From: Oceaniovalibus guishaninsula JLT2003
GTDB lineage: Bacteria; Pseudomonadota; Alphaproteobacteria; Rhodobacterales; Rhodobacteraceae
Length of the DNA: 64,000 nt
Reading direction: 5' to 3'
NCBI RefSeq assembly: GCF_000299575.1
Contig: NZ_AMGO01000067.1
Location: 1 to 64,000, forward strand
Under the pieces are notes generated by a model. It was not told where the DNA came from, ran no database searches, and saw only the letters and a program-made list of their open reading frames with translations. Positions 27,457 to 64,000 of the stretch are shown here, one piece after another; within the stretch, counting starts at the first letter, position 1; every line of letters begins with the position of its first letter. Both the position numbers and the translations under genes were made by a program.

Positions 27457-28200
27457 ATGTATACGAAACTTTTCGGAGCGGCAGCGGCGGCGGCGGTCAT
27501 GGTATCGGGTGCCCAGGCATTCGCCGCGACGCTTTTGATCGACGATTTCAGCACCGTTCAATCGGTCAGCGACGTACCGTCGGCCGGCCTGACCAACGCC
27601 TCGCAGGCGGCCGGACCGGGCATCCTGGGCGGTTTCCGCGACCTTCAGGTGAGCAACACCGCCAATAACGGCAACCCCACCAACGCGACCGAACTGGAAG
27701 CGACGGGGACGTCGCTGGCGTTCAACAACAATGCGCAGGCCCGCGGCACCGGCACCGTCACCTATGACGGCGACGACGATCCGACCACGCTGAATCCGTT
27801 CGGCCTGGGCGGCGTGAACCTGAACATCGGCACCGACCCGTTCTTCGCCTTCGATGTCGATTCGGCGGCCTTCGACGGCAACGCCCTGTTCCGGCTGACC
27901 GCCTATGACATGCTGGGCAACCAGGTGTCGTATCAGGAAACGCTGGCCGGCGGCTTCGAGACCACGCTGGATTTCGGGTCGCTGACGGGCGATGCGGGCT
28001 TCGATTTCGGCCAGGTCGGCGCACTGGAATTCTTCATCAGCACCGAAGGCACCGCCATCAGCATCGACGGCGTTCTGAACTCGATCTCGGTCCAGGCCGG
28101 CGACACGCCCCCGGTCGTTCCGCTGCCGGCTTCGGCGCTGCTGCTGCTGGGCGGCATCGGCGGCCTGTCGGTCATGCGGGCCCGCCGCCGCAAGAGCTGA
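27457..28200 (+). CDS. VPLPA-CTERM sorting domain protein, secreted
   Basis: 247-residue exported protein. A signal peptide (MYTKLFGAAAAAAVMVSGAQAFA) is followed by an Asn/Gly/Thr-rich beta-strand body. The C-terminal sorting signal is VVPLPASALLLLGGIGGLSV followed by a basic RARRRKS tail, i.e. motif, hydrophobic helix, Arg cluster. Such tails are processed by exosortases (XrtD-type for VPLPA in Rhodobacteraceae) and the proteins accompany exopolysaccharide or biofilm matrix loci. GGGAGA before the ATG is the ribosome site, and an A/T-rich stretch with TTAAGGTAAGTTAAC (27419-27433) likely holds the promoter. The gene stands alone and is followed by a strong terminator. Confidence 0.9.
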   Translation: MYTKLFGAAAAAAVMVSGAQAFAATLLIDDFSTVQSVSDVPSAGLTNASQAAGPGILGGFRDLQVSNTANNGNPTNATELEATGTSLAFNNNAQARGTGTVTYDGDDDPTTLNPFGLGGVNLNIGTDPFFAFDVDSAAFDGNALFRLTAYDMLGNQVSYQETLAGGFETTLDFGSLTGDAGFDFGQVGALEFFISTEGTAISIDGVLNSISVQAGDTPPVVPLPASALLLLGGIGGLSVMRARRRKS

Positions 28201-28319: not shown

Positions 28320-30974
28320 TCAGATCTGCGCGCGCGGTGCCTGCTGGCCCCCGAACGTCCGATCCTCGGCGCCCCGGCGGGTCGCGGCGACGGCCCGTGC
28401 GAAACGGTCGAGTTCGCCATCGGTCCAGACATGGCCGTGCCATTGGGCGACGGCGGGCTCGAACCCGTGACGTTCGGCCAGTTCGGCGATCAGGTCGGCA
28501 TCCTTCAGCGACAGCCTGGAGCCGATGCTGTAATCCCCGTCCTGCCGCGCCAGCGCCAGAAGCATCGTCTCGCCCAGGCATCCCCAGCACAGATCCTGGG
28601 GCAATGTCTGGAACGCGCCCAGATCCACCGCGAAGGGCGGACTGACGAGGCCCCCGTCGAAGACCAGGATGCCGCGGTCGGAAATGTCGGCCTTGGCGAC
28701 GTTCTGCGGACGCGCCACGTCGCAGACCAGTGTGCCCGGCTTCAGCCGGTCGGTGTCGATGACGGCGGTTTCGGAACTGGTCGCGACAAGGACGATATCG
28801 GCATGGGCCATGGCCGCGTCGATATCGGTCGTCCAGTCGAGCGGCGCCTGACGGCCCGTGGTGCGGAAGGCGGTGTCGAACCGTTCGGCCAGACCCTTCA
28901 CGTCCGTTCCGGCCAGCCCGAACCGCGACGCGCCGCCGCGTATCGTGCCGGCCATCGCGCCATTCGCGCGGTCCGTATCGGCGACCGACAGGGTCGCGCA
29001 GATCTCGTCGGCGACATGCGCCAGAAGCTTGGGCGAGAAGGGGTTTTTCGCGTTGCCCACCAGCGTCATGCGACCGCAGAGGCGCGACAGCATCAGCGCC
29101 CCCAGCCGGCCGATGGCGCCCGAGGCCCCCACGACCGCGACATGCGCGTTCGCCATGTCCATCCCCGACCGTTCCGCCATCCGACCGATCGCGCGCACCG
29201 CCGAAACGGTGGTCAGGGTGTTGCCGCTGGTGATCGGCACGCCGCGCCCGGTCGCCATTTCGCCGCCGCGTGTGGCGATCGAGGTGAAGGCGCCCAGGCC
29301 CAGGCGCGACACGCCGGCATCCTGCGCCATGTCCACGGCGTCGCGGATCATCGCGGCGGCCACCGCGCGTTCGCGCCCGCGCATGTCGCGCGGCAGCATC
29401 GGCACCGACAGGATCCAGCCCTCGGCGGTCTGCCCGGTCAGCGAGGTGACGGGCGGGATGCGGCGTACATAGCCCGGCCCGAGCTGCTTGACCCAGTCGC
29501 ACCAATTGCCCAGCTCGGCCTCGTCGAACTGGCGGAACGAGGGATCCGAGCGAAAGATGTCCTCTTCCTCGGTATAGTGGATGAGGAAGGCGAACTTGCC
29601 CGGCACCGGGGTCGCGGCATCGACGGCGGCGGCGGCCGGACCGGCATCGGCGGGCGCGGCATCGGGCAGTTGCGGCGGCGTCGCCACCAGATGGCGCACC
29701 ATCCGGTAATAGTCGCGCCCGGCGACGATATCGCAGACGGCGCCGAGCGCATCGACGGCGCGGTCGATCTCGGCCCGGCCGGAAATCAGCGGCGGCTGCA
29801 GGCGCAGAACGTGGCTGTCGTTGAACAACGGCGCGGTGATCACGCCCTCGATATTCATCAGGTAGGAGCTGATCAGCGGCGTCACGCCGCCGTTGAGGCT
29901 GGAAAACGCCATCGTCGCCGAATCGATGCGGTCGTCGAAGCGGTGGAATTCGACACCCATCATGTAGCCCTGACCGCGCACCTCGCGGATGACTTCGGGA
30001 TAGGCGCGTTGCAGGTCGGTCAGGCGGTTTTCCAGATGGACGCCGTTCCAGGCCACGCTTTCGACCAGCGCGCCGTCGTCTTCCAGCAGCAGGTCGAGCG
30101 TGACGTTCGCCGCGCGGCAGGCCAGGTTGTTGTTGGCGAAGGTCGAGCTGTGCAGGCGGCCGAACCGGTCGTCCCAGACGGACGGGCGCACGATGCAGGC
30201 CCCGATCGCCATCATCCCGCCGCCGAGCGCCTTGGACAGCAGCAGCATGTCGGGCACTTCGCGGCCGCGCGAACAGGCGAACAGCGCGCCGGTGCGCCCC
30301 AGACCCGTCTGGATCTCGTCCAGGATCGTCAGCACGCCATGGGACCGGCACAGCGCGATCGCGCCGTCGATATAGCCTTCGGGCGGACGGACGACGCCGC
30401 CCTCGCCCTGGATCGGTTCGACGATGAAGGCCGCCAGACGGTCGGCGCCCGCTTCGAGCCGGGCGCGCAGCGCGTCGAGATCGCCGTAAGGCAGATAGCC
30501 GAAGCCGGGCGCGGGGGCCGCGAACCCCTTTTGATAGAGCGGCTTGCCGGTCGCCGACAGCGCGCCCAGCGTCTTGCCGTGAAAGCTGTTGGAGGTGGAC
30601 AGGATTTCGGTCCGGCCGGTGCGCACGCGCGCCAGCTTGATCGCCGCCTCGACCGTTTCGGCGCCGCTGTTGGTCAGCGTGGTGATGCCCAGATCGCCGG
30701 GCGCGATGTCGGCCAGACGCTGGGCCAGACGCTCGGCCTCGACCGCGTGCAGGGGCTGGACCAGCGATGGCAGCTCGTCGTGCTGCGCGGCCATCAGGCC
30801 GGACCAGAGCCGGGGATGGTTGTGGCCGAACGGCAGCGCACCGTATTGCGATAGGAAGTCCAGATATTGCCGCCCCTGATCGTCGAACAGGTGGCATCCC
30901 GAACCGCGCACAAGCCGCGTGTCGAGGGCGAAGGTACGCAGAAGTTCCGCGCGCGTTGGATTCAGGGCCGACAT
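28320..30974 (-). CDS. Fusion: class III aminotransferase + acyl-ACP-reductase-like domain
   Basis: 884 residues. Residues ~1-430 are a complete PLP class III aminotransferase: TNSGAETVEAAIKLAR, SFHGKT, ILDEIQTGLGRTG (Asp219) and LLLSKALGGG (Lys248, Schiff-base). An Ala/Pro linker (about 432-459) joins a second enzyme: FAFLIHYTEEEDIF, GLGAFTSI (559-566), ITSGNTLT (581-588), VAVVGASGAIGR (NADPH site, about 612-623), VFDGGLV and CWGCLGETMLL. These match, in order, the cyanobacterial long-chain acyl-ACP reductase, with Cys799 at the position of its catalytic cysteine. Inference: the reductase makes an aldehyde from an acyl thioester and the aminotransferase turns it into an amine, or the reverse direction of supply. 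Substrate unknown. Confidence 0.85.
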   Translation of the reverse strand: MSALNPTRAELLRTFALDTRLVRGSGCHLFDDQGRQYLDFLSQYGALPFGHNHPRLWSGLMAAQHDELPSLVQPLHAVEAERLAQRLADIAPGDLGITTLTNSGAETVEAAIKLARVRTGRTEILSTSNSFHGKTLGALSATGKPLYQKGFAAPAPGFGYLPYGDLDALRARLEAGADRLAAFIVEPIQGEGGVVRPPEGYIDGAIALCRSHGVLTILDEIQTGLGRTGALFACSRGREVPDMLLLSKALGGGMMAIGACIVRPSVWDDRFGRLHSSTFANNNLACRAANVTLDLLLEDDGALVESVAWNGVHLENRLTDLQRAYPEVIREVRGQGYMMGVEFHRFDDRIDSATMAFSSLNGGVTPLISSYLMNIEGVITAPLFNDSHVLRLQPPLISGRAEIDRAVDALGAVCDIVAGRDYYRMVRHLVATPPQLPDAAPADAGPAAAAVDAATPVPGKFAFLIHYTEEEDIFRSDPSFRQFDEAELGNWCDWVKQLGPGYVRRIPPVTSLTGQTAEGWILSVPMLPRDMRGRERAVAAAMIRDAVDMAQDAGVSRLGLGAFTSIATRGGEMATGRGVPITSGNTLTTVSAVRAIGRMAERSGMDMANAHVAVVGASGAIGRLGALMLSRLCGRMTLVGNAKNPFSPKLLAHVADEICATLSVADTDRANGAMAGTIRGGASRFGLAGTDVKGLAERFDTAFRTTGRQAPLDWTTDIDAAMAHADIVLVATSSETAVIDTDRLKPGTLVCDVARPQNVAKADISDRGILVFDGGLVSPPFAVDLGAFQTLPQDLCWGCLGETMLLALARQDGDYSIGSRLSLKDADLIAELAERHGFEPAVAQWHGHVWTDGELDRFARAVAATRRGAEDRTFGGQQAPRAQI

Positions 30975-31339: not shown

Positions 31340-31825
31340 TCAGTTGCTGGGGGTGCAGTTCGGGTTCCGTCCCGTGCATCCCACGGTAAGCGCGTCGATA
31401 TCGCCCGCATCCCCGCCGCCCGTGGCCGTGTTTCCCGATGTCGCATAGCTGGCGTTGACGGTGGTGCCCCTGTCGTCGTTGTTGTTGGCCACCTCCGCGG
31501 CGACCACGATGGCCGCGGTGGAGATCGCGGCGCTGCCCAGGCCCTTCGCAAGCGATTGTCCGACGCCCGGCGAGGATGCCGTATCCCGCGCGATCACCCG
31601 CACCCCTTCGGACGCGCCGACATCGAACGTCGTCAGCGACGTGATGACCGGCGCGCCGCCCGACGGATCGGAGGCGACCGACACGACGTCCTGCAGCATC
31701 CGCCCGTTCGCAAGCTGATAGGGCGGCAGCACGGTCGTCCCTGTTTCGGCGCAGGCGCCGAGAAGCATTGCGGCCGATGCCAGACCGGCGGCCCCGCCGC
31801 GTCCGAGGAATGTCGCTCGTTCCAT
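31340..31825 (-). CDS. Small lipoprotein with C-terminal DIDAxTVxCTGR motif
   Basis: 161 residues, unrecognised family. The signal peptide ends in a lipobox, LLGAC, so it should be lipid-anchored in the envelope. The body is Ala/Gly/Thr/Ser-rich with a helix-like AISTAAIVVAAEVANNN segment. The C terminus reads DIDALTVGCTGRNPNCTPSN, nearly the same as the end of the next protein upstream. GAGGAGG precedes the ATG. Only 15 bases separate it from the stop of that gene, so they form an operon. Confidence 0.75.
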   Translation of the reverse strand: MERATFLGRGGAAGLASAAMLLGACAETGTTVLPPYQLANGRMLQDVVSVASDPSGGAPVITSLTTFDVGASEGVRVIARDTASSPGVGQSLAKGLGSAAISTAAIVVAAEVANNNDDRGTTVNASYATSGNTATGGGDAGDIDALTVGCTGRNPNCTPSN

Positions 31826-31840: not shown

Positions 31841-32503
31841 TCAGTTGCTTGGCTTGCAGTCGGCCCCGCGTCCCGTGCAGACCACGGTCACGGCGTCGAT
31901 ATCCGCATCCCCGTCCGAGCGGTTGCCCATGTTGACATAGCGGATCGACAGGTTTTCGAGCCCCGCCAGAAGCGCCTCGGGATCGCTGATGCTCAGCAGG
32001 TCCGGGCGGAAGACCAGCGCGTTCAGATTCACCGCCTCGAGCCCGCCCACCGGCCCGAAGAAGGTATCCGCCTCTTCCTGAAGCCAGGTCGCGTAATCGG
32101 CCGGATCCTGGAAGACGAGCTTGCCGCTGGTGCCGATGGCCAGATCGGGATCGGTGTCGAGACGGGCCAGATGTTCGGACTGGGCCATCTGGGTCACGGC
32201 CGCGACGGGATCGATGTCGGCCCCGAGTTCGACGGTAAAATCCAGCACCGCCACGAAGGAGGGGCCGTCGGCGGGCGTCCGCACCGTCGTTTCGGTGTCG
32301 TTCGACGGGTCGGCATCCTGTCCGTCCTGGGGGGCCGGACCGCCCTGATCCTGCCCGGAACCGCCTTGCGACGCGGCGCTTCCCTGATTTTGCTGGCTGC
32401 CCTGATCCTGCTGGGCCGAGGCCGGCGACAGGCCGAGCAAGGCCGCCAGAAAGGCCGCGTGAACGGAAGTGGCGGGGAATGAAAGGAACGGGGTGCGGTT
32501 CAT
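31841..32503 (-). CDS. Secreted protein with C-terminal DIDAxTVxCTGR motif
   Basis: 220 residues from ATG 32503 (GAGGAG eight bases upstream). Signal peptide to about residue 32 (cleavage near PASAQ), then a Gln/Gly/Ser-rich linker (33-75), then a compact domain with FVAVLDFTVELGADIDPVAAV, LVFQDPADYATWLQEEAD and LNALVFRPDLLSISD. It ends DIDAVTVVCTGRGADCKPSN. The domain is not recognised. The shared tail with its operon partner and the two Cys in it suggest a disulfide-bonded or processed terminus. Confidence 0.75.
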   Translation of the reverse strand: MNRTPFLSFPATSVHAAFLAALLGLSPASAQQDQGSQQNQGSAASQGGSGQDQGGPAPQDGQDADPSNDTETTVRTPADGPSFVAVLDFTVELGADIDPVAAVTQMAQSEHLARLDTDPDLAIGTSGKLVFQDPADYATWLQEEADTFFGPVGGLEAVNLNALVFRPDLLSISDPEALLAGLENLSIRYVNMGNRSDGDADIDAVTVVCTGRGADCKPSN

Positions 32504-32726
32504 AGTGTCATCTCCTCGGCTGGAGCGGGCAATACGAAACGGAACGACGAAGATCGTGCTGTCAGGACAGGACCGGCACCGGGGATCCGGTTCCGAAAAA
32601 AGTGAAGGGTTCTGGAAATCGCCGGACGGGATTGTCGCGCAATCGCCGGGGCGGACGGGCGCCCGTGCCCCTGTGGCAGAGGGCCGGGGGCCGCAGATCG
32701 GGCGCCGCAATCCTGCGGCAGGGCGA

Positions 32727-56093: not shown

Positions 56094-56753
56094 TTACCGC
56101 CCGAAATCCGAATGCCACTCATCTTCGTCGAATTGTCGGTAAGTCAGTCTCGCCCCCGCTAGCAGCCCGCCCAGATACCCGCCCAGATGCGTTTCCCAGG
56201 CCAGGATGCCGCCCTGCGCGATCAACGTCACCAGGTTCAGCAGCACCAGCCCCCCGCTGGCCCAGGCGACCCGGCGCCAGTCGCGGTCGGTCCGCCAGCG
56301 CAGCGCGACCAGCGCGCCGATGACCCCGAAAAGCGCCCCGGACGCCCCCACCATGGGCGAAAGCGATGCCGACAGAAGCGCGAAGGCCACGGCCCCGCCC
56401 AGCAGCGAGACCAGCCAGACCAGTCCGAACCGGGCCTGTCCCACCCGGTCGGCCAGTTGCGGACCGATCCAGGCCAGCACCAGCATGTTGCCCAGCAGAT
56501 GCAGCGGTCCGCCATGCAGGAACGCATAGGTGACGAACATCGCCTGGGGCTGGCCGGGATAGTTCGGTTTCCAGTTCAGCAACAATCCGCGCCAGAAGGC
56601 CCCGTATTCCAGCGACATCACGCGCCAGCGATAGGGACCGAACAGGCCCCAATCGGCCAGCCACAGCGTTCCTTCGATTCCGCAGCACACGATCGCAATG
56701 GCGATCAGCATGCCGCGGCCGGCGACGGGCGCTGGCGGGGTGTCCGTTCTCAT
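56094..56753 (-). CDS. Rhomboid family intramembrane serine protease
   Basis: 219 residues from ATG 56753. Six membrane helices with the rhomboid catalytic pair: FLHGGPLHLLGNMLVLAWIGP (oxyanion-side His and Asn), GASGALFGVIGALVAL (Ser in GASG) and ETHLGGYLGGLLAG (His). Cleaves transmembrane segments of envelope proteins. It is downstream of nothing obvious, but its neighbourhood to the exosortase-associated locus raises the possibility of a role in processing membrane-anchored matrix proteins. Confidence 0.9.
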   Translation of the reverse strand: MRTDTPPAPVAGRGMLIAIAIVCCGIEGTLWLADWGLFGPYRWRVMSLEYGAFWRGLLLNWKPNYPGQPQAMFVTYAFLHGGPLHLLGNMLVLAWIGPQLADRVGQARFGLVWLVSLLGGAVAFALLSASLSPMVGASGALFGVIGALVALRWRTDRDWRRVAWASGGLVLLNLVTLIAQGGILAWETHLGGYLGGLLAGARLTYRQFDEDEWHSDFGR

Positions 56754-56817
56754 GGATGCGGATGTCCGGGTGGACGGCGGCAGGGCACGGCGGATGCCGC
56801 CCATCCCCGCGCGCCCG

Positions 56818-58107
56818 TCAGAACCTGAATTCGAAACCCCGGCGCAGGTTGACCGAGATGGTGTTGCCGGTGGCGGTATCCTCGGTTCCCTCGTCCGAGA
56901 TGCGGTGGCGCAGCGCCATGTCGAGCCGCCAATCCTCGGTCAGGCGGCGTTGCAGGCCGACCCCGACCGATCCGAAACTCTCGCTCGCCGCGCCGTCGCC
57001 CGTCGGATCGCTGGCAATATAGGACAGGTCGAAATTCGCGCTGGTCAGGGCGTTCACCTGATGACTGTAGCCCAGCGAAGCCGCGGTAATGTCGCGTTCC
57101 TCGTCGTCGCTGCCCGACTGGACCGACCGGCGCAGATCGGCCGACAGCGATCCGGTCGGCAGATCCCGCGTCACCGACAGCGCCCCGGTCGTGAACAGGT
57201 CGCCATCGACCGATTGCGTCGCGCCCAGTTCGCCCGCGATGGACCACAAGGGCAGCGTCAGGCTGCGTTCGATGCGGATCGAATAACGCTCGCCGTCCTC
57301 GGTCGAGGTCGCCCCGAGGTCGAGGCCCACCGCCCCCGTCCGAAGCCGCTGCGATATGCCGGCATTCAGCGCATAGGTGTCGCGCCGGCCCTCGTCGCGC
57401 CCCTCGTCGTCGAAGCTGGAATAGTCGAGGCCCAGGGTGGCCTGGCGGGTCGGGGTCAGCACGAAGCGCAGGCCGACGCCCGCGCGCACCCGCGTCTCGT
57501 CCGTCAATGTGCTGGTATCGGTGGTGTCGCTGTAGCGCTGGCCGTCGAGGCCCGCCGACAGGGTGATGCCGATGGGCGCGCGGCGCCGCAGTTCCAGTTC
57601 GGTGCCCAGCCCGAAGGCCAGCCGCGTGCCTCTTTCGCCCCGATCGTCGAGATCGTCCAGCACCAGCGGATCGTCCAGCCCGCCCTCGAGCGGATCGAGG
57701 AACGCGACCCGGCTGCGCCGCACGAAGCCGGTCACGCCGATCCTGCTGTCGGGAACCGTCCGTTCATAGGCCAGCCGCAGCGTCGGCGTGGCGACGAAAT
57801 CGTCGCGGTTCGACTCTTCAGGGTTGTCCAGCGCCCGCAGACCCACATCGCCCGACAGCGCGAAGGTCTGTAGCGGCGTGCTGTAGAGCAGTTCGAAATC
57901 GAGGCCCGTCACCGCCTCCAGCGTGGTGCCCTTGCTGTCGGGATCAAGCGCCAGGTTGTCGTCCGCGACCAGCCCGAACCGGGTTCCGAAAGACAGCAGG
58001 CGGCCGGTATCTTGCGCGGCGACGGCCCCCGCCCCCAGGATCAGTCCCGCCCCGCCGATCGCGGAAAGCGCGCGGCGCAGGCGCGGCCTGTCAGACGGTT
58101 GCGTCAT
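56818..58107 (-). CDS. Outer-membrane beta-barrel protein of the exopolysaccharide locus
   Basis: 429 residues. Signal peptide (about 1-32, cleavage at VAAQ), then alternating polar/hydrophobic strands throughout, rich in Asp, Gly, Thr and Leu, ending in FEFRF: the terminal aromatic Phe is the usual outer-membrane insertion signal. It resembles the beta-barrel proteins that accompany PEP-CTERM/exosortase-type exopolysaccharide clusters and would form or assist the export pore. Fifteen bases separate it from the Wza-like gene upstream on the same strand. Confidence 0.8.
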   Translation of the reverse strand: MTQPSDRPRLRRALSAIGGAGLILGAGAVAAQDTGRLLSFGTRFGLVADDNLALDPDSKGTTLEAVTGLDFELLYSTPLQTFALSGDVGLRALDNPEESNRDDFVATPTLRLAYERTVPDSRIGVTGFVRRSRVAFLDPLEGGLDDPLVLDDLDDRGERGTRLAFGLGTELELRRRAPIGITLSAGLDGQRYSDTTDTSTLTDETRVRAGVGLRFVLTPTRQATLGLDYSSFDDEGRDEGRRDTYALNAGISQRLRTGAVGLDLGATSTEDGERYSIRIERSLTLPLWSIAGELGATQSVDGDLFTTGALSVTRDLPTGSLSADLRRSVQSGSDDEERDITAASLGYSHQVNALTSANFDLSYIASDPTGDGAASESFGSVGVGLQRRLTEDWRLDMALRHRISDEGTEDTATGNTISVNLRRGFEFRF

Positions 58108-58122
58108 GCCGTCCTGCCCGCG

Positions 58123-58776
58123 TCATTCGAACAGGCGGCGGGTGGGGACCAGAATGACGTCGCCATCCTGCATCGTCACCGACCCGTTGGGACTGCGCCC
58201 CTGCATGATCGCGTTGTAGTTCAGCGCATAGACCCGTTCGATCCCGGTCGCCGGATCCTTGCGGCGCAGCTGCACCCGCTTCAGCGCGGCGAAATCCGAA
58301 AACCCGCCCATCTCGGCAAAGGCCTGCAACAGGGTCGTGCCCGGTTCCAGTTCCAGCCGCCCCGACTTGGCGGCCTCGCCCAGGACGAACACGGTGATCG
58401 TGTCGGCTTCTTCGGGAAGGTCCAGCGGCGGTGCGGCCAGCCGTTCCAGAGACACGAAGACGGTCGGCGGGTTGCTGAAGGACGGGGATAGCTGCTGCAC
58501 CAGATCGGACTGGACCGCGCCCAGTGTCCGGCCGCCCGCCTGGATGGCGCCCGCCAGCGGGAAGGTGAACTGTCCGTCCGGCGTCACCAGCACGCTGCGG
58601 TTCAGCGTGCTGTCCTCGATCACCTCGATCTTCAGCACGTCGCCGGGCCCGATCCGATAGGCGTTCTGCGCCGCCAGAGGCGCGGGCAGCATCAGCAGGA
58701 AGGCAGCCAGCAGGGCGAACAATGCCGGCGGGACAGCCGCGAACCGAAAGGTCCGGATCGGATGGGAATGGGTCAT
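58123..58776 (-). CDS. Polysaccharide export protein (Wza-like, SLBB)
   Basis: 217 residues from ATG 58776. Signal peptide to about residue 37 without a lipobox. The Poly_export domain reads YRIGPGDVLKIEVIEDSTLNRSVLVTPDGQFTFPLAGAIQAGGRT, then an SLBB-type segment ITVFVLGEAAKSGRLELEPGTTLLQAFAEMGGFSDF, ending in DGDVILVPTRRLFE. It would form the periplasmic/outer-membrane conduit for the exopolysaccharide, together with the adjacent beta-barrel protein. Confidence 0.92.
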   Translation of the reverse strand: MTHSHPIRTFRFAAVPPALFALLAAFLLMLPAPLAAQNAYRIGPGDVLKIEVIEDSTLNRSVLVTPDGQFTFPLAGAIQAGGRTLGAVQSDLVQQLSPSFSNPPTVFVSLERLAAPPLDLPEEADTITVFVLGEAAKSGRLELEPGTTLLQAFAEMGGFSDFAALKRVQLRRKDPATGIERVYALNYNAIMQGRSPNGSVTMQDGDVILVPTRRLFE

Positions 58777-58884
58777 GTCGGGTTCCGGTGTTGTCGCAAG
58801 GCCGTCGCCACCTTGGGCGCCGCCGTCGGGGGGGACAAGGAAAGGATGGGTCCGCAAGGGGTTCTGGGGCGCAATGACAGCGAA

Positions 58885-58906
58885 GTGTGGCGAAATCTCG
58901 CCACAC
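58885..58906 (-). terminator. Hairpin between TPR lipoprotein and export genes
   Basis: GTGTGGCGA and TCGCCACAC form a perfect 9-bp stem with a 4-base loop, 36 bases past the stop of the TPR lipoprotein gene. No T-tract follows. It may terminate or attenuate transcription into the export genes. Confidence 0.45.
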
Positions 58907-58941
58907 CTTGTCCGTTCGGTGCGATGCGCCCCCGTGCCGCC

Positions 58942-61515
58942 TCAGCGGTCGGGCGCGGAAACCGGATCGGCGGTGCCGGGTCCGGCATCCGGGTCGGGCG
59001 CGGTATCCGCCGCGGCAGGGATATCGGAATCGGCCCCATCGGAATCCGGCCCATCGGAATCGGGGGCGGCGGAAAGGGCCGCCAGCGTCTCGCGCGCGGT
59101 CTCGAACTGGGGCAGGGGGCTGTCGCCGGCCATGTCGAGCGTGCGGCGCAGCGTCTCGGCCGCTTCGGCATCGCGCCCCAGCGCGGCATAGGTCATGCCG
59201 AGGTGATACTGCACCAGCGGATCCTGCGGCAGACCGGCCGCGGCGGGTTCGAGATAATCCAGCGCCTCGTCGAAGCGGCCGTCGCGATAGGCGATCCAGC
59301 CATAGGTGTCCTGGAAGGGCGGCACGTCCGTTCCGCGAAGGCGCCGCGCGACGGCCGTGGCGCGCGCCAGGCTTTCGTCGGTCTGCCGATGGGTGCTGAG
59401 CATGCTGGCCAGGTTGTTGGCCACCACCACGTCGCCGCTGTTCTGCGCATAAAGGTCTTCGTAAATGGCGATCGCATCGTCGAAGCGGCCGTCACGCTCC
59501 AGCTCGCCGGCCTTGAAGAGGCGCAGCAGACGCGATTCCGGCTGGGCGGCGATCGCGGCGTCCAGAACCGCTTCGGCCTCGTCGGGGCGTGCGGTGGCGT
59601 TCAGCAGGCGGTAAAGCTGCTGGGCGGGCGCCTCGGCGGCGGGATCGGCCGCCACCAGATCGCGCAAGATCGATTCGGCGCGCTCCACGTCGCCCTCGGC
59701 CGCGGCCAGGCTGGCATCGACCTGCCGCAGGCCCGGATCGTCGGGCGACTGGACGAGCAGCGTATCGAGATAGCGGCGCGCCTCCTCGGTCCGGCCGTTG
59801 CGCAACTGCGTCTCGACCACTGCGATGACGGCCTGGATGTTGCCGCCATCCGATCCGGCCTGTTCCTCCAGCATGGCCAGGCCGTCCTCGACCCGGTCGG
59901 CCTGCAGCAGCAGCGCCGTTTCCAGCGACCGCGCGCCCCTGGCCGCCCGCGGATCGTCGAGCAGTTGCAGATCCCCGATGATGCCGCGAACCAGCCCCTC
60001 CGATCCTTCCTCGAGCGCCAGCCGCGCGGATTGCAGCAGGATGTCGATATTGCCCGGATTGGCCCGCCGCGCATCGGCCAGCACGGACCGGGCCGGCGCC
60101 AGCCGCCCCTGATCGACCAGGAAGGCCGCATAGCGCAGCGATTCGTCCGGCCCCGAGCCCGAGACCTCGACCGCCGTGGCCAGCCGTTCGCCCTGAAGAT
60201 CGGTGTCGCCGCCGCGGGCATGGGCATCGGCCAGCAGCAGGATCGTGCCGGTATCGCGCGGGTTCTGGTCCAGCGCGCGGCGCAGGTCGATGATCGCGGC
60301 ATCGGGTTCGTCCGCCTCGATCAGCATGGCGCCGCGCAGCTTGAGCGCGGGCACGTTGGCCGGATCCTCGGTCAGGATCTCCTCGACCAGGGCGCGGGCG
60401 CCCACCTGGTTGTCGGTGGTCAGCAGCATCTGCGCCAGCATCGCCTTGATCCGCCGCGTCTGGTCGGACGGTTCGGCATCGGCCAGCACGTCCTGAAGTT
60501 CGGCGATCGCCTGCGTCCTGTCGCCGTCCTGGAAGGCATAGGTCGCCTTGACGGCGCGATAGGCCGCGATGTTGGCCGGGTTCCCGGCATTGGCGGCGAT
60601 CAGGCGGTCCACCTCGGCTGTGGCGGCCTCGCGGCCGCGGGCCTGCTCGATCAGGGCGATGACCGGCGCGTGCTTTTCGGGTTCGGACGTGTCGCCGCCG
60701 GCGCGGTCGCGCAGGAAGCTTTCGGCCGAATCGAAATCCTCGCGGTCGAGGAACCAGGCGATCAGCGTCTGCTGCACTTCCTCGTTGTCGGGAAAGAGTT
60801 CGTACATGCGGCGCAGCTGCGCATCGGCGGCATCGGTATCGCCCAGGCCGACCAAAAGCTGGAACTTCAGCACGTTGAATTCCAGCACGGTCGGGTCGGT
60901 TTCCAGCGCGCCGTTCAGCAGTTCCAGCGCTTCGGTCAGTTGTTCGGTGTCCAGAAGCTGCGCCAGCAGGACGCGCTGCGCGACGATCTCGTCGGGGTTT
61001 TCGTTCAGGATGTCGCGGGCCGTATCCGCCAGGATCACGCGTTCGGCCGCGTCCTCGTCCTCGACCGCCTTGCGGAAATCGAGGGCGAGGCCGATCACCC
61101 GCGCCTCGGGATGGTCGGGGTCGAGCGAGAGCGCGGCGCGGCCGTGGCGCTCGGCTTCGGCCCACTGGCCCTGCTCGATGGCGATGCGCGCCAGCGCGCG
61201 GCGGATGTCGGGCGTGTCGGGATATTGTTCTGCCAAACGCAGGTATTCGCTGTAGGCGCGGCTGATATCGCCGCGCTCCAGCAGGATCCGGGCAAGCTGG
61301 CGGCGCGCGTCCTGATGGGCGCCGTCGAAGCGGAAGACGTTGCGGAACTCGACCATCGCGCGGTCCGTGTCGCCGGCTTCCAGCAGCGCCATGCCCGACT
61401 GATAGAAGCGTTCGGCCTTGTCGGCCGAGCTTTCGCAAGCCGTCAGGGCAAGACTGGCCGCGAGAACGGCACCGAGAAGGGGGCGGGGGGGAAGGAAAAA
61501 TGACATGACCGGCAT
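58942..61515 (-). CDS. TPR-repeat lipoprotein of exosortase-type EPS system (PrsT-like)
   Basis: 857 residues. Lipobox LTAC with Cys27, so an envelope lipoprotein. The rest is a long array of tetratricopeptide helices (e.g. AERFYQSGMALLEAGDTDRAMVEF, RYLDTLLVQSPDDPGLRQVDASLAAAEGDVERA, DTYGWIAYRDGRFDEALDYLEPA). The length, lipobox and TPR content match the large TPR lipoproteins of PEP-CTERM/exosortase polysaccharide loci. The last ~40 residues are Asp/Ser/Pro-rich and repetitive. Probably a scaffold for export. ATG 61506 is an alternative start. Confidence 0.88.
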   Translation of the reverse strand: MPVMSFFLPPRPLLGAVLAASLALTACESSADKAERFYQSGMALLEAGDTDRAMVEFRNVFRFDGAHQDARRQLARILLERGDISRAYSEYLRLAEQYPDTPDIRRALARIAIEQGQWAEAERHGRAALSLDPDHPEARVIGLALDFRKAVEDEDAAERVILADTARDILNENPDEIVAQRVLLAQLLDTEQLTEALELLNGALETDPTVLEFNVLKFQLLVGLGDTDAADAQLRRMYELFPDNEEVQQTLIAWFLDREDFDSAESFLRDRAGGDTSEPEKHAPVIALIEQARGREAATAEVDRLIAANAGNPANIAAYRAVKATYAFQDGDRTQAIAELQDVLADAEPSDQTRRIKAMLAQMLLTTDNQVGARALVEEILTEDPANVPALKLRGAMLIEADEPDAAIIDLRRALDQNPRDTGTILLLADAHARGGDTDLQGERLATAVEVSGSGPDESLRYAAFLVDQGRLAPARSVLADARRANPGNIDILLQSARLALEEGSEGLVRGIIGDLQLLDDPRAARGARSLETALLLQADRVEDGLAMLEEQAGSDGGNIQAVIAVVETQLRNGRTEEARRYLDTLLVQSPDDPGLRQVDASLAAAEGDVERAESILRDLVAADPAAEAPAQQLYRLLNATARPDEAEAVLDAAIAAQPESRLLRLFKAGELERDGRFDDAIAIYEDLYAQNSGDVVVANNLASMLSTHRQTDESLARATAVARRLRGTDVPPFQDTYGWIAYRDGRFDEALDYLEPAAAGLPQDPLVQYHLGMTYAALGRDAEAAETLRRTLDMAGDSPLPQFETARETLAALSAAPDSDGPDSDGADSDIPAAADTAPDPDAGPGTADPVSAPDR

Positions 61516-61622
61516 TCTATCTGGTCCGGGGTCCCGGATTATGGCGTTTTTCGATCATTATCGGGATGGGCGCCGGATGTCACAGACGAACTTGCCGCTT
61601 CACCGGGGGAAAGCGCGGCCGG

Positions 61623-62333
61623 TCAGCAGCCGGTGCCGCGCAGCACGACCCGCACCGTCGCCGCCAGGATCTTCAGGTCGGTCCACAGCGACAGGTCGCG
61701 GTTATAGTGCAGGTCGAATTCGGCGCGCGCCGCGAAGGTCGACCGGTTGCGGTCCGAAATCTGCCACAGGCCGGTGATGCCGGGGCGCAGGTCGTAGTAA
61801 TCCGTCCCCGGATAGAGAGCCTTCTGCGACACCATCATCGGGCGCGGCCCCACAAGGCTCATCTGGCCGACCAGCACGTTGAAAAGCTGCGGCAGCTCGT
61901 CCATCGAGGTCTTGCGCAGGATCCGGCCCATGCGGGTGATGCGCGGATCGTCGGTCAGCTTCTGCTTGCTGTCCCATTCCCGGCGCAGCGGCGGGTTGGC
62001 GTCCAGATGGCGTTCCAGATGCGCATCGGCGTCGCGGATCATCGTGCGCAGCTTCCAGATGCGATAGATGCGTCCGCCGCGTCCGATGCGGTCCTGCGAA
62101 TAGAAGGGATGCCCGCCGTCCAGCGCCACCAGAAGCGCCAGCAGGGCGATCAGCGGCAGGATCAGCGGCAGCGCCAGAACGATCGCCAGGATGTCGAAGG
62201 CGCGCTTGACGCCCTCGCGGTAAAGACCGGAACGCGGCTCGGACCGGGCCGGGACGACGGACAGAAGCGGGGGTTCGCGATGCGGTACGACGATCTCGGC
62301 CGCCTCGGTGATCCATGTATCGTAAGCCGTCAT
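61623..62333 (-). CDS. Undecaprenyl-phosphate sugar-1-phosphate transferase (initiating)
   Basis: 236 residues from ATG 62333 (upstream in-frame codons look non-coding). Starts the polymer by moving a hexose-1-phosphate to undecaprenyl phosphate. Seen: GVKRAFDILAIVLALPLILPLIALLALLVALDG (re-entrant membrane helix), FYSQDRIGRGGRIYRIWKLRTM, DPRITRMGRILRKTSMDELPQLFNVLVGQMSLVGPRP and RPGITGLWQISDRN: all core motifs of the WbaP/ExoY catalytic domain, in the short, one-helix form. Confidence 0.94.
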   Translation of the reverse strand: MTAYDTWITEAAEIVVPHREPPLLSVVPARSEPRSGLYREGVKRAFDILAIVLALPLILPLIALLALLVALDGGHPFYSQDRIGRGGRIYRIWKLRTMIRDADAHLERHLDANPPLRREWDSKQKLTDDPRITRMGRILRKTSMDELPQLFNVLVGQMSLVGPRPMMVSQKALYPGTDYYDLRPGITGLWQISDRNRSTFAARAEFDLHYNRDLSLWTDLKILAATVRVVLRGTGC

Positions 62334-62850
62334 TCTCGCATCCAATGAATAGGGCCGGACCGGATCGTCCTTGGGTTGAATTTCACCCTGGGATTTCAAA
62401 CTGCGGGTGCCCTGACTTTCGGAATATCTGCAGGCGGCCAGCATGGTCGGTTCAAGTTATCTCGTATTGTTTGAATTGCTATCGAACGATTGGGAGCAAT
62501 GCCAGTTCAACTTTTTCCAAATTATATATAACTTATTGGAAAGGTTTAAGTATTTAAGATCGGATTGTCAACCGGTCCCGGTCGGACGGCAAGGATTGTT
62601 TCACACCTGCATGAAATATCGGCGGAAGGTCGCGTCACTGTTGAGGAAAACATGCCAAGGTCACTTGCCGCGGGCGTCCTGGCGCCCCGTTCCGCCCGCT
62701 CTGCCAACTGATTCTGCGGTTGTCTTGCCGCCGTCCGCCCTTCGCGGTATCACGTCCCGGCGAGAGGACGTTTTTCCCGTCGTCACATTTCCGGCGCGGG
62801 GTTGCCGCATGTTTCCGCACCAGTCAGCATAGATCATGCGGGATGGAACC
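62334..62850. other. Divergent regulatory region, with an AT-rich island
   Basis: 517 bp between the sugar transferase (minus) and the ATPase gene (plus). From about 62455 to 62575 the sequence is strongly A/T-rich, with TTCCAAATTATATATAACTT and CCAA/TTGG ends (62517-62541) that could form a promoter or a binding site for an H-NS-like or MucR-type silencer. The 129-codon open frame from 62443 has no coding character. Both EPS transcripts probably begin here. Confidence 0.5.
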
Positions 62851-63735
62851 ATGGCCAGCACGATAGAAATCTATACGGATCATTTCGGCCTGCGCGAGCG
62901 TCCGTTTTCCCTCGTTCCCGATCCCGGCTTCCTGTTCTGGGGCCCCGCCCACAAGCGGGCCTTCGCCATTCTCGAATACGGAATCATGACGCGCGCGCCG
63001 ATCACCCTGATCACCGGCGAAATCGGGTCGGGCAAGACCACGCTGCTGCACCACATGCTGCAATCGCTGGAAGACGACGTGCGTATCGGCCTGATCGCCA
63101 ACACCCAGGGCCGCGAGCGGGGCGAATTGCTGCGCTGGGTGATGTCCTCGCTCGACCAGCCGACCCGCGCGGATGACAGCTATGTCGATCTGTTCGAGAA
63201 GTTCCAGACCTTCCTGATCGACGAATACGCCCAGGGCCGCCGGGTGGTGCTGGTGCTGGACGAGGCGCAGAACCTCAACCGCGACTCGCTGGAAGAGCTG
63301 CGGATGCTGACCAACATCAACGCCAACAAGGACGAGTTGCTGCAACTCGTTCTGGTCGGACAGCCCGAGCTGCGCGACATGGTGCTGGCCCCCGACCTGC
63401 GTCAGTTCGCGCAGCGCGTGACGGCGAACTTCCACCTGACGGCCATGGACGGCCCCACGGTCGCGGCCTATATCGGCCACCGCCTGGAAGTCGCGGGCGG
63501 CAGTCCCGACATCTTCACGCCCGAAGCCTGCGCGCTGGTCCACGAACGGACGGGGGGCGTGCCGCGGCTGGTCAACCAGCTATGCGACCTGTCGCTGGTC
63601 TACGGCTTTCTGGACGATGCCACACGGATCGGCCCGCAGATCGTGCAGCAGGTTCTCGACGACGGGGTCTTCTTCGGCGGCGGCGTCCGGCCCGAACCCG
63701 TGCGTCTTCTCAATCCCATCGCGAGGGCGACATGA
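62851..63735 (+). CDS. ExeA-like AAA ATPase of exosortase-type EPS locus
   Basis: 294 residues from ATG 62851 (ATG 62836 possible). The start IEIYTDHFGLRERPFSLVPDPGFLFWGPAHKRAFAILEYG... is typical of the ATPases tied to XrtA-type exosortase polysaccharide clusters. Walker A GEIGSGKT (56-63), Walker B VVLVLDEAQNLNRDSLEELRML, sensor-like FAQRV, and ERTGGVPRLVNQLCDLSLVYGF. Its TGA overlaps the ATG of the chain-length gene. Probably regulates or energises polymer assembly. Confidence 0.9.
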   Translation: MASTIEIYTDHFGLRERPFSLVPDPGFLFWGPAHKRAFAILEYGIMTRAPITLITGEIGSGKTTLLHHMLQSLEDDVRIGLIANTQGRERGELLRWVMSSLDQPTRADDSYVDLFEKFQTFLIDEYAQGRRVVLVLDEAQNLNRDSLEELRMLTNINANKDELLQLVLVGQPELRDMVLAPDLRQFAQRVTANFHLTAMDGPTVAAYIGHRLEVAGGSPDIFTPEACALVHERTGGVPRLVNQLCDLSLVYGFLDDATRIGPQIVQQVLDDGVFFGGGVRPEPVRLLNPIARAT

Positions 63736-64000
63736 TCCCGGATATCCGTTTCTATCTGTCGCTGTTCTTTCGCCGGATCCACTATTTCCTGCTGCTGGTG
63801 GTGCTGGGCGGCGCGATCGGCATCGCCTTCGCGCTGATCCTGCCGCCCCGCTACGTGGCGCAGGCCCGGCTGGTCGTCGAATCCGAACAGATCCCCGACG
63901 ATCTGGCCGCCTCGACCGTCCGCACCGAAGCGACCGAGCAGTTGCAGATCATCCAGCAGCGCATCCTGACCCGCAACAACCTGCTGGAAATGGCCAACCG
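63732..64000 (+). CDS. Polysaccharide chain-length determinant (Wzz/GNVR), 3' end outside window
   Basis: Partial gene: 89 codons visible before the window ends. ATG 63732 overlaps the ATPase stop (ATGA). MIPDIRFYLSLFFRRIHYFL leads into a first membrane helix (LLLVVLGGAIGIAFALILP) and PPRYVAQARLVVESEQIPDDL, the standard start of Wzz/PCP proteins, followed by the helical periplasmic domain. It should control chain length or couple to the ATPase. The remainder, and possibly the exosortase gene, lie beyond 64000. Confidence 0.9.
   Translation, partial: MIPDIRFYLSLFFRRIHYFLLLVVLGGAIGIAFALILPPRYVAQARLVVESEQIPDDLAASTVRTEATEQLQIIQQRILTRNNLLEMAN

Follow-up and report, generated by a model that had tools for sequence, protein, structure and literature searches.

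The window, by which we mean the whole stretch of 64,000 nucleotides analysed here (Oceaniovalibus guishaninsula JLT2003, contig NZ_AMGO01000067.1, positions 1 to 64,000), contains a gene on the minus strand (28320-30974) whose product joins a class III aminotransferase to a thioester reductase of the acyl-ACP reductase type (AAR; ACP, acyl carrier protein), and which we call TA-AAR. We consider it reasonably probable that TA-AAR is a TamH-like amine synthase, its product probably fatty, that acts together with one exosortase-sorted surface protein. This protein, hereafter the partner, is encoded by the convergent gene at 27457-28200 on the plus strand, about 120 bp away, and ends in a VPLPA-CTERM sorting signal. 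The enzyme type is already known; what is new is its setting, the pairing with a single exosortase-sorted protein family. Our literature searches, which covered open-licence PMC papers, found no report of an exosortase-linked aminotransferase/reductase.

TA-AAR is one open reading frame with an ATG start, 884 codons and a GC content of 70/50/87% per codon position; of the 25 other loci, 22 have the frame open from end to end, and contig ends cut the remaining three. Domain searches, alignment and modelling together assign residues 21-411 to the aminotransferase, with Lys248, and residues 459-884 to the reductase, with Cys799. The aminotransferase domain (29742-30914, minus strand) matches Pfam Aminotran_3 (PF00202) with an E of 4.7e-85 on the protein and 4.2e-86 in the search of its own genome. 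Lys248 sits in the motif SKALGGG and is unchanged in all 23 full-length rows of the alignment, a count made without the three rows truncated at contig ends. The sequence-only reading had described a single 884-residue chain with a complete class III pyridoxal phosphate (PLP) aminotransferase and Lys248, and reading frame, Pfam match and conservation agree with it.

The reductase domain (28323-29600, minus strand) was assigned by sequence searches with residues 440-884 and by a predicted structure. In phmmer searches these residues alone match PigE (4PPM) with E 2e-31 and the cyanobacterial AAR sequence of 6JZQ/6JZY with E 1.3e-21. The model of residues 459-884, built on a 26-row alignment (pLDDT 88.9), has 6JZY as its top PDB match (TM 0.65 by query length and 0.79 by target length, 23% identity), and carmabin TAD domains come next; the matches to other Rossmann folds have E values of 1.8e-7 or worse. 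Cys799 lies in WGCLGET and pairs in the alignment with the cysteine of SeAAR, Cys294, given as catalytic in PMC9594044. It is identical in 26 of 26 TA-AAR rows (our own and 25 loci), across which the AAR motifs vary little or not at all. As modelled, the C-terminal half thus has the AAR fold with a catalytic-type cysteine. The motifs named beforehand for this half were all found in the sequence, the placing of Cys799 at the catalytic position was borne out by the SeAAR alignment and by its conservation, and the profile and structure check proposed in the same reading ranked the AAR and PigE matches first, with the cysteine retained and 6JZY as the top fold. By curated cut-offs, TA-AAR is the equivalog of neither AAR nor PigE: the reductase half scores 92.3 bits with NCBIfam TIGR04058 (AcACP_reductase), under the cut-off of 449.7, and NF053554 (PigE) gives 170.3 bits on this half alone and 539.4 bits on the whole protein, against a cut-off of 850.

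Two characterised relatives indicate what such a chain may do. PtTamH, of the tambjamine YP1 pathway of Pseudoalteromonas tunicata, is an aminotransferase followed by an AAR-type reductase and was assayed in 2022; TamA-bound C12-ACP, NADH and L-glutamate yield the C12 amine, aldehyde is detected when L-glutamate is omitted, and free C12-CoA yields no amine (PMC9594044). PigE has its reductase domain first; PMC8341465 gives evidence for thioester reduction and describes a synthetic thioester that restores pigment in a pigD mutant. The earlier statement that this architecture has no characterised example must consequently be withdrawn, since PtTamH has the same domain order and PigE the reversed one. 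The chemistry proposed with it, from thioester through aldehyde to amine, fared better and is well supported by sequence, fold and these two relatives, although for TA-AAR itself it stays a prediction. The lipid or polysaccharide decoration suggested in the same place stays a conjecture, and the conserved partner and the link to exosortase D went unmentioned there. Both domains occur in one chain in aminotransferase-reductase order, and the PLP lysine and the reductase cysteine are conserved; by its sequence, TA-AAR resembles enzymes of the TamH type but is not part of a tambjamine cluster as far as its surroundings show. The called neighbours of TA-AAR look unrelated to tambjamine genes by eye, no profile search for such genes having been made.

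Related domains recur in other arrangements. Among 398 genomes sampled from the phylum, with architectures read by eye from the frames, we saw one aminotransferase-reductase chain (L105), two chains of PigE order (L106, L107), two with a different N-terminal part (L108, L109) and one lone reductase (L110). Within the same family as the window, an aminotransferase-reductase pair of another lineage lies inside an open frame of 3237 residues (L076; G163:C54, ~108890-109909). Distant aminotransferase-reductase genes are also found in other surroundings on a plasmid of Leisingera sp. M527 (L155, 7597-11784) and on Thioclava plasmid p2 (L156, 6842-9376), the latter near genes for an acyl carrier protein and an AMP-binding protein.

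The sequence-only reading had suggested asking which genomes carry the fusion and what they have in common, and the answer is 26 carriers (our own genome and 25 database genomes), every one of which encodes the partner. The carriers were collected by scanning genome contigs with the reductase profile, 64 pattern matches resolving into 25 loci, four of them in G002, G005, G010 and G011 of the window's genus. All but one of the 25 are labelled Rhodobacterales; the exception, on a contig of a metagenome-assembled genome labelled Verrucomicrobia, is probably a binning error, because that copy falls inside the Rhodobacterales tree. Of the 14 genomes of the window's genus, five have TA-AAR (our own and the four just named), and in comparing the flanks of these five loci (BLASTP, 1e-8) the partner was the only other common gene of note; two of the loci also matched each other at 31-33% in a generic ABC-ATPase. 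With a partner profile from which the sorting tail had been removed, the partner was found in the fetched stretch at 20 of 26 loci, ~60-1230 bp from TA-AAR. At L064 it lies on the same contig, ~550 bp before an N-terminal TA-AAR piece at the contig's other end, which brings the carriers with the partner within ~1.3 kb to 21 of 26; at L069, on the same contig as G211, it is ~8 kb away, across the gene for exosortase D (XrtD). The partner copies of L050, L051, L064, L067 and L070, which had not been used for the profile, matched it with E 1.2e-53 to 1.7e-70.

As a control, we scored up to nine candidates per genome in 293 family genomes that lack TA-AAR. A partner-profile match at E<=1e-10 occurred in 29 and one at E<=1e-29 in three (G244, 2.5e-36; G119, 1.2e-32; G020, 2.1e-30); G045 and G168 gave full-length but weaker matches, and the others were partial, mostly toward the sorting tail. 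The partner family is thus rare in sampled relatives without TA-AAR, and inspection by eye revealed no second route to an amine near the partner genes of G119, G244 and G020. In the family sample as a whole, TA-AAR is present in 2 of 295 genomes (our own and G211), a count that leaves out the distant relative in the 3237-residue frame of G163 as well as the weak reductase-profile matches (~19-24 bits over a short Rossmann stretch) in 14 of the 17 matching family genomes. Plasmid records, searched after the idea had formed, gave 16 with a match. At the three plasmid loci of at least 51% identity, those of Pseudorhodobacter turbinis, Haematobacter massiliensis pOT1-1 and Rhodovulum sp. P5 pRGUI04, the partner is adjacent in every case. 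The other 13 records are at 25-30% identity and, as judged from H5, H13 and H11 (the last annotated beside PigD), seem to belong to other pathways.

Two other explanations for the pairing were set aside. A rough Poisson estimate from the 14 VPLPA-CTERM matches in the 2.9 Mb genome of the window puts the chance of any VPLPA gene lying within 1.3 kb of TA-AAR at 2.5%, to be set against 20 of 26 loci with one family. Inherited gene order is disfavoured: the other neighbours differ across the five genus loci, the arrangement varies between groups, and the genus carriers are scattered on the tree. This quick likelihood tree holds 27 TA-AAR rows and two outgroup rows, the fragments L051 and L064 having been left out. 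Ten rows form one clade (SH-aLRT 100) in which the partner, where seen nearby, lies upstream on the same strand; in the remaining rows it is mostly convergent, and divergent in two (L062, L152), so that at least two changes of arrangement are required. The carriers of the window's genus are split among three positions on the tree (the window's own copy with L049, L054 with L059, and L073 within the ten-row clade). This suggests a mobile unit whose two genes remain together. Co-divergence of TA-AAR and partner is moderate (r 0.54, Mantel p 0.0001, 23 loci, L071 left out), and kinship alone could yield the same.

The partner has 247 residues, a start that resembles a signal peptide by eye, and its VPLPA-CTERM signal at residues 221-245 (TIGR03370, 38.9 bits, above the cut-off of 25.35); the annotation rests on this signal, on conservation near TA-AAR and on a model. 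The model, from a 19-row alignment (pLDDT 81.9) from which L060 and L061 were left out on account of unclear starts, is all-beta, and the best matches in a fold search are CBM11 modules, with a best E of 5.8e-6. The same list also holds complex I assembly-factor (CIA30-like) entries, a viral turret protein and a flagellar sheath protein. On this model, it is plausible that the partner binds sugar. Elsewhere, several related loci have a rhomboid gene in divergent orientation to that of the partner (confirmed by Pfam at L068 and L172, seen by eye at L169 and L173), and in G119 (L100) and G244 (L101) the partner-family VPLPA genes stand, as read by eye, between a gene of ~680 residues and apparent branched-chain amino acid ABC transporter genes.

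The sorting enzyme is encoded in most carriers. The VPLPA-specific exosortase XrtD (TIGR04152) of the window's genome, at G000:C67:67383-68849 (643 bits, cut-off 400), is on the same contig, 36 kb from TA-AAR and 3.4 kb past the right edge of the window. In the genus, XrtD is present in 6 of 14 genomes, namely all five TA-AAR carriers and G006, hence in one of nine non-carriers. It exceeds the cut-off in 22 of the 25 scan genomes, or 23 of 26 carriers with our own, compared with 68 of 295 genomes in the family sample (66 of 293 without our own and G211); for 23/26 against 66/293 the Fisher p is ~2e-11, uncorrected for kinship. XrtD lies within 25 kb of TA-AAR on the same contig in eight loci (0.2-24.9 kb) and 83 kb away, in linear coordinates, at L064, and on the Rhodovulum plasmid pRGUI04, TA-AAR, a VPLPA protein and an annotated xrtD occur within 9 kb among polysaccharide genes.

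Putting these elements together, we propose that an acyl group would move from a carrier, most likely acyl-ACP, onto Cys799 of the AAR-type domain, where the bound thioester would be reduced with NAD(P)H to the aldehyde, and that the aminotransferase, through Lys248, would turn the aldehyde into a primary amine, probably of the fatty type with a medium or long chain. Reaction, chain length and acyl donor are what we infer here, the reaction from TamH and PigE. The acyl group would probably come from fatty acid synthesis, because a motif scan found no ACP nearby. TA-AAR and the convergent partner would belong to one pathway, in which the partner is secreted, possibly binds sugar, and has its VPLPA-CTERM tail processed by the exosortase D encoded elsewhere. 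The product, as such or derivatised, would serve together with the partner at the cell surface or beyond it, most likely as an envelope, matrix or other extracellular constituent of the exopolysaccharide/exosortase system, akin to the N-acyl amino acids whose synthases are reported near PEP-CTERM/exosortase genes.

Several observations weigh against this proposal. The motif scan saw no small ACP-like frame near TA-AAR in 29 loci of 18-42 kb each, although other ACPs could escape it, and inspection by eye showed no conserved acyl ligase, with no profile search for ligases made; at L072 a ligase-like gene lies ~5 kb from TA-AAR. The two patterns of the locus scan were derived from five close relatives and see only this TA-AAR subfamily, whose carriers are related rather than independent. 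At L050, L051, L067 and L070 the partner is on another contig and not beside TA-AAR as far as the contigs show, those of L051 and L070 being cut so near TA-AAR that adjacency could not show. The fold match of the partner is weak (TM ~0.5 by target length, root-mean-square deviation ~9 A). Neither XrtD nor the exosortase/archaeosortase signature was found in the genomes of L057, L061 and L071, whose completeness is not stated and one of which is a 2.8 Mb metagenome-assembled genome. Lastly, 66 of the 68 sampled XrtD genomes are without TA-AAR, for which reason we rejected TA-AAR as a general component of the exosortase D system.

Other roles for the amine have to be weighed against a use together with the partner at the surface. 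The amine could instead be a diffusible amphiphile, free or acylated, serving as an antimicrobial, signal or surfactant that the partner binds, exports or protects against at the surface. We hold this to be unlikely, though some observations favour it: TA-AAR is patchily distributed and partly plasmid-borne, TamH and PigE make parts of diffusible antibiotics (PMC9594044, PMC8341465), and N-acyl amino acid synthases are reported to be linked to PEP-CTERM/exosortase genes (Craig et al. 2011, as described in PMC7293339). No transporter, acyltransferase or resistance gene is common to the five loci compared, however, and the partner model resembles, if weakly, sugar-binding modules.

It is less probable still that the fatty amine serves as the nucleophile that resolves the acyl-enzyme of exosortase D, leaving the partner, or all VPLPA proteins, with a membrane-tethering C-terminal N-alkyl amide. 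The linkage of TA-AAR, partner and XrtD is in keeping with this idea, and an amine-bearing lipid nucleophile is offered as a speculative model for archaeosortase ArtA, with a rhombosortase as an analogue, in PMC7157517. The near absence of TA-AAR from sampled XrtD genomes speaks against it, as do the three carriers that show no XrtD and the fact that just one of the 14 VPLPA-CTERM matches in the window's own genome is tied to TA-AAR. TA-AAR is expected to be cytoplasmic and the sortase is membrane-bound and faces outward, so that the amine would also need to cross the membrane to reach it. A lipid anchor would be conceivable only as an arrangement peculiar to a single protein, and we give little credence to its specific form, in which a fatty-amine synthase devoted to this purpose would make an amine for exosortase D to attach at the C-terminus of the cognate VPLPA-CTERM protein, which would then be held by an N-alkyl-amide anchor. 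To our knowledge, what bacterial exosortases attach their substrates to is still open; if true, such an anchor would settle that question in concrete terms and add a new type of protein lipidation in bacteria.

A catabolic use, with both domains running in reverse to oxidise an amine to an acyl thioester, is very doubtful. Transaminases are reversible, and a flavoprotein with an amine-oxidase-like N-terminus, as seen by eye, adjoins TA-AAR at L036 (11367-12851) and L050 (4842-6215), but this flavoprotein is missing from the other loci of the five-locus comparison, the genomic link is to a surface-protein and exopolysaccharide system, and the characterised relatives work as reductases. That the reductase half is some other Rossmann oxidoreductase without thioester reduction we regard as scarcely credible: short Pfam matches to THF_DHG_CYH_C and Shikimate_DH and the TIGR04058 score far below its cut-off might suggest it, but AAR and PigE rank first by sequence and fold, and Cys799 and the AAR motifs are conserved as described above.

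Elsewhere in the window, the right end (56094-64000) is an exosortase/exopolysaccharide-type locus on the same contig as TA-AAR, with a rhomboid-family membrane protein (56094-56804, minus strand; PF01694, E 3.7e-30), an AAA ATPase and a PrsT-like TPR protein (58942-61515, minus strand; TIGR02917, E 2.8e-69, 234 bits, below the cut-off of 312.2). By eye, the predicted proteins at 31340-31825 and 31841-32710 (minus strand) have similar cysteine-containing C-terminal tails, TVGCTGRNPNCTPSN and TVVCTGRGADCKPSN; no Pfam or NCBIfam family matched either of them, the second having been searched as 31841-32548.

A two-gene unit of an amine-making enzyme of predictable chemistry and a sorted protein, present in cultured Rhodobacterales, would offer a small test system for learning whether a lipid-like amine modifies a sorted protein, is bound by it or just occurs alongside it. 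TA-AAR also joins a small set of natural catalysts for turning thioesters into amines, which have practical interest.

TA-AAR can be placed beside several known systems. By the published description of PtTamH (PMC9594044), both proteins have a class III aminotransferase first and an AAR-type reductase second, with GxxGxxG and a catalytic-type cysteine, and are of similar length (941 residues in PtTamH, 884 here); PtTamH belongs to a tambjamine cluster and receives its acyl-ACP from TamA, whereas TA-AAR accompanies a VPLPA-CTERM protein and exosortase D. With PigE, of the MAP branch of prodigiosin synthesis (PDB 4PPM), TA-AAR has both domains in common (whole-protein phmmer E 1.5e-107, best over the aminotransferase), but the order differs, reductase-first in PigE and aminotransferase-first in TA-AAR. 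The C-terminal half is like cyanobacterial AAR (TIGR04058; 6JZQ/6JZY) in its predicted fold, its motifs and its catalytic-type cysteine, yet AAR is a stand-alone enzyme that feeds an oxygenase, and identity in the fold alignment is only 23%. With the exosortase-linked N-acyl amino acid synthases, as covered in PMC7293339, TA-AAR has in common that an enzyme for a lipid-like small molecule adjoins sorted-protein and exopolysaccharide genes; there the chemistry is N-acylation and the proteins are of the PEP-CTERM type, and here we predict amine chemistry with a VPLPA-CTERM protein. Finally, as in the pairing of archaeosortase ArtA with PssA and PssD in Haloferax, a sortase-like enzyme is linked to predicted makers of an amine lipid, although that system (PMC7157517) is archaeal, involves a phospholipid amine and was studied with deletion mutants, whereas the link of TA-AAR to its exosortase is known from genomes alone.

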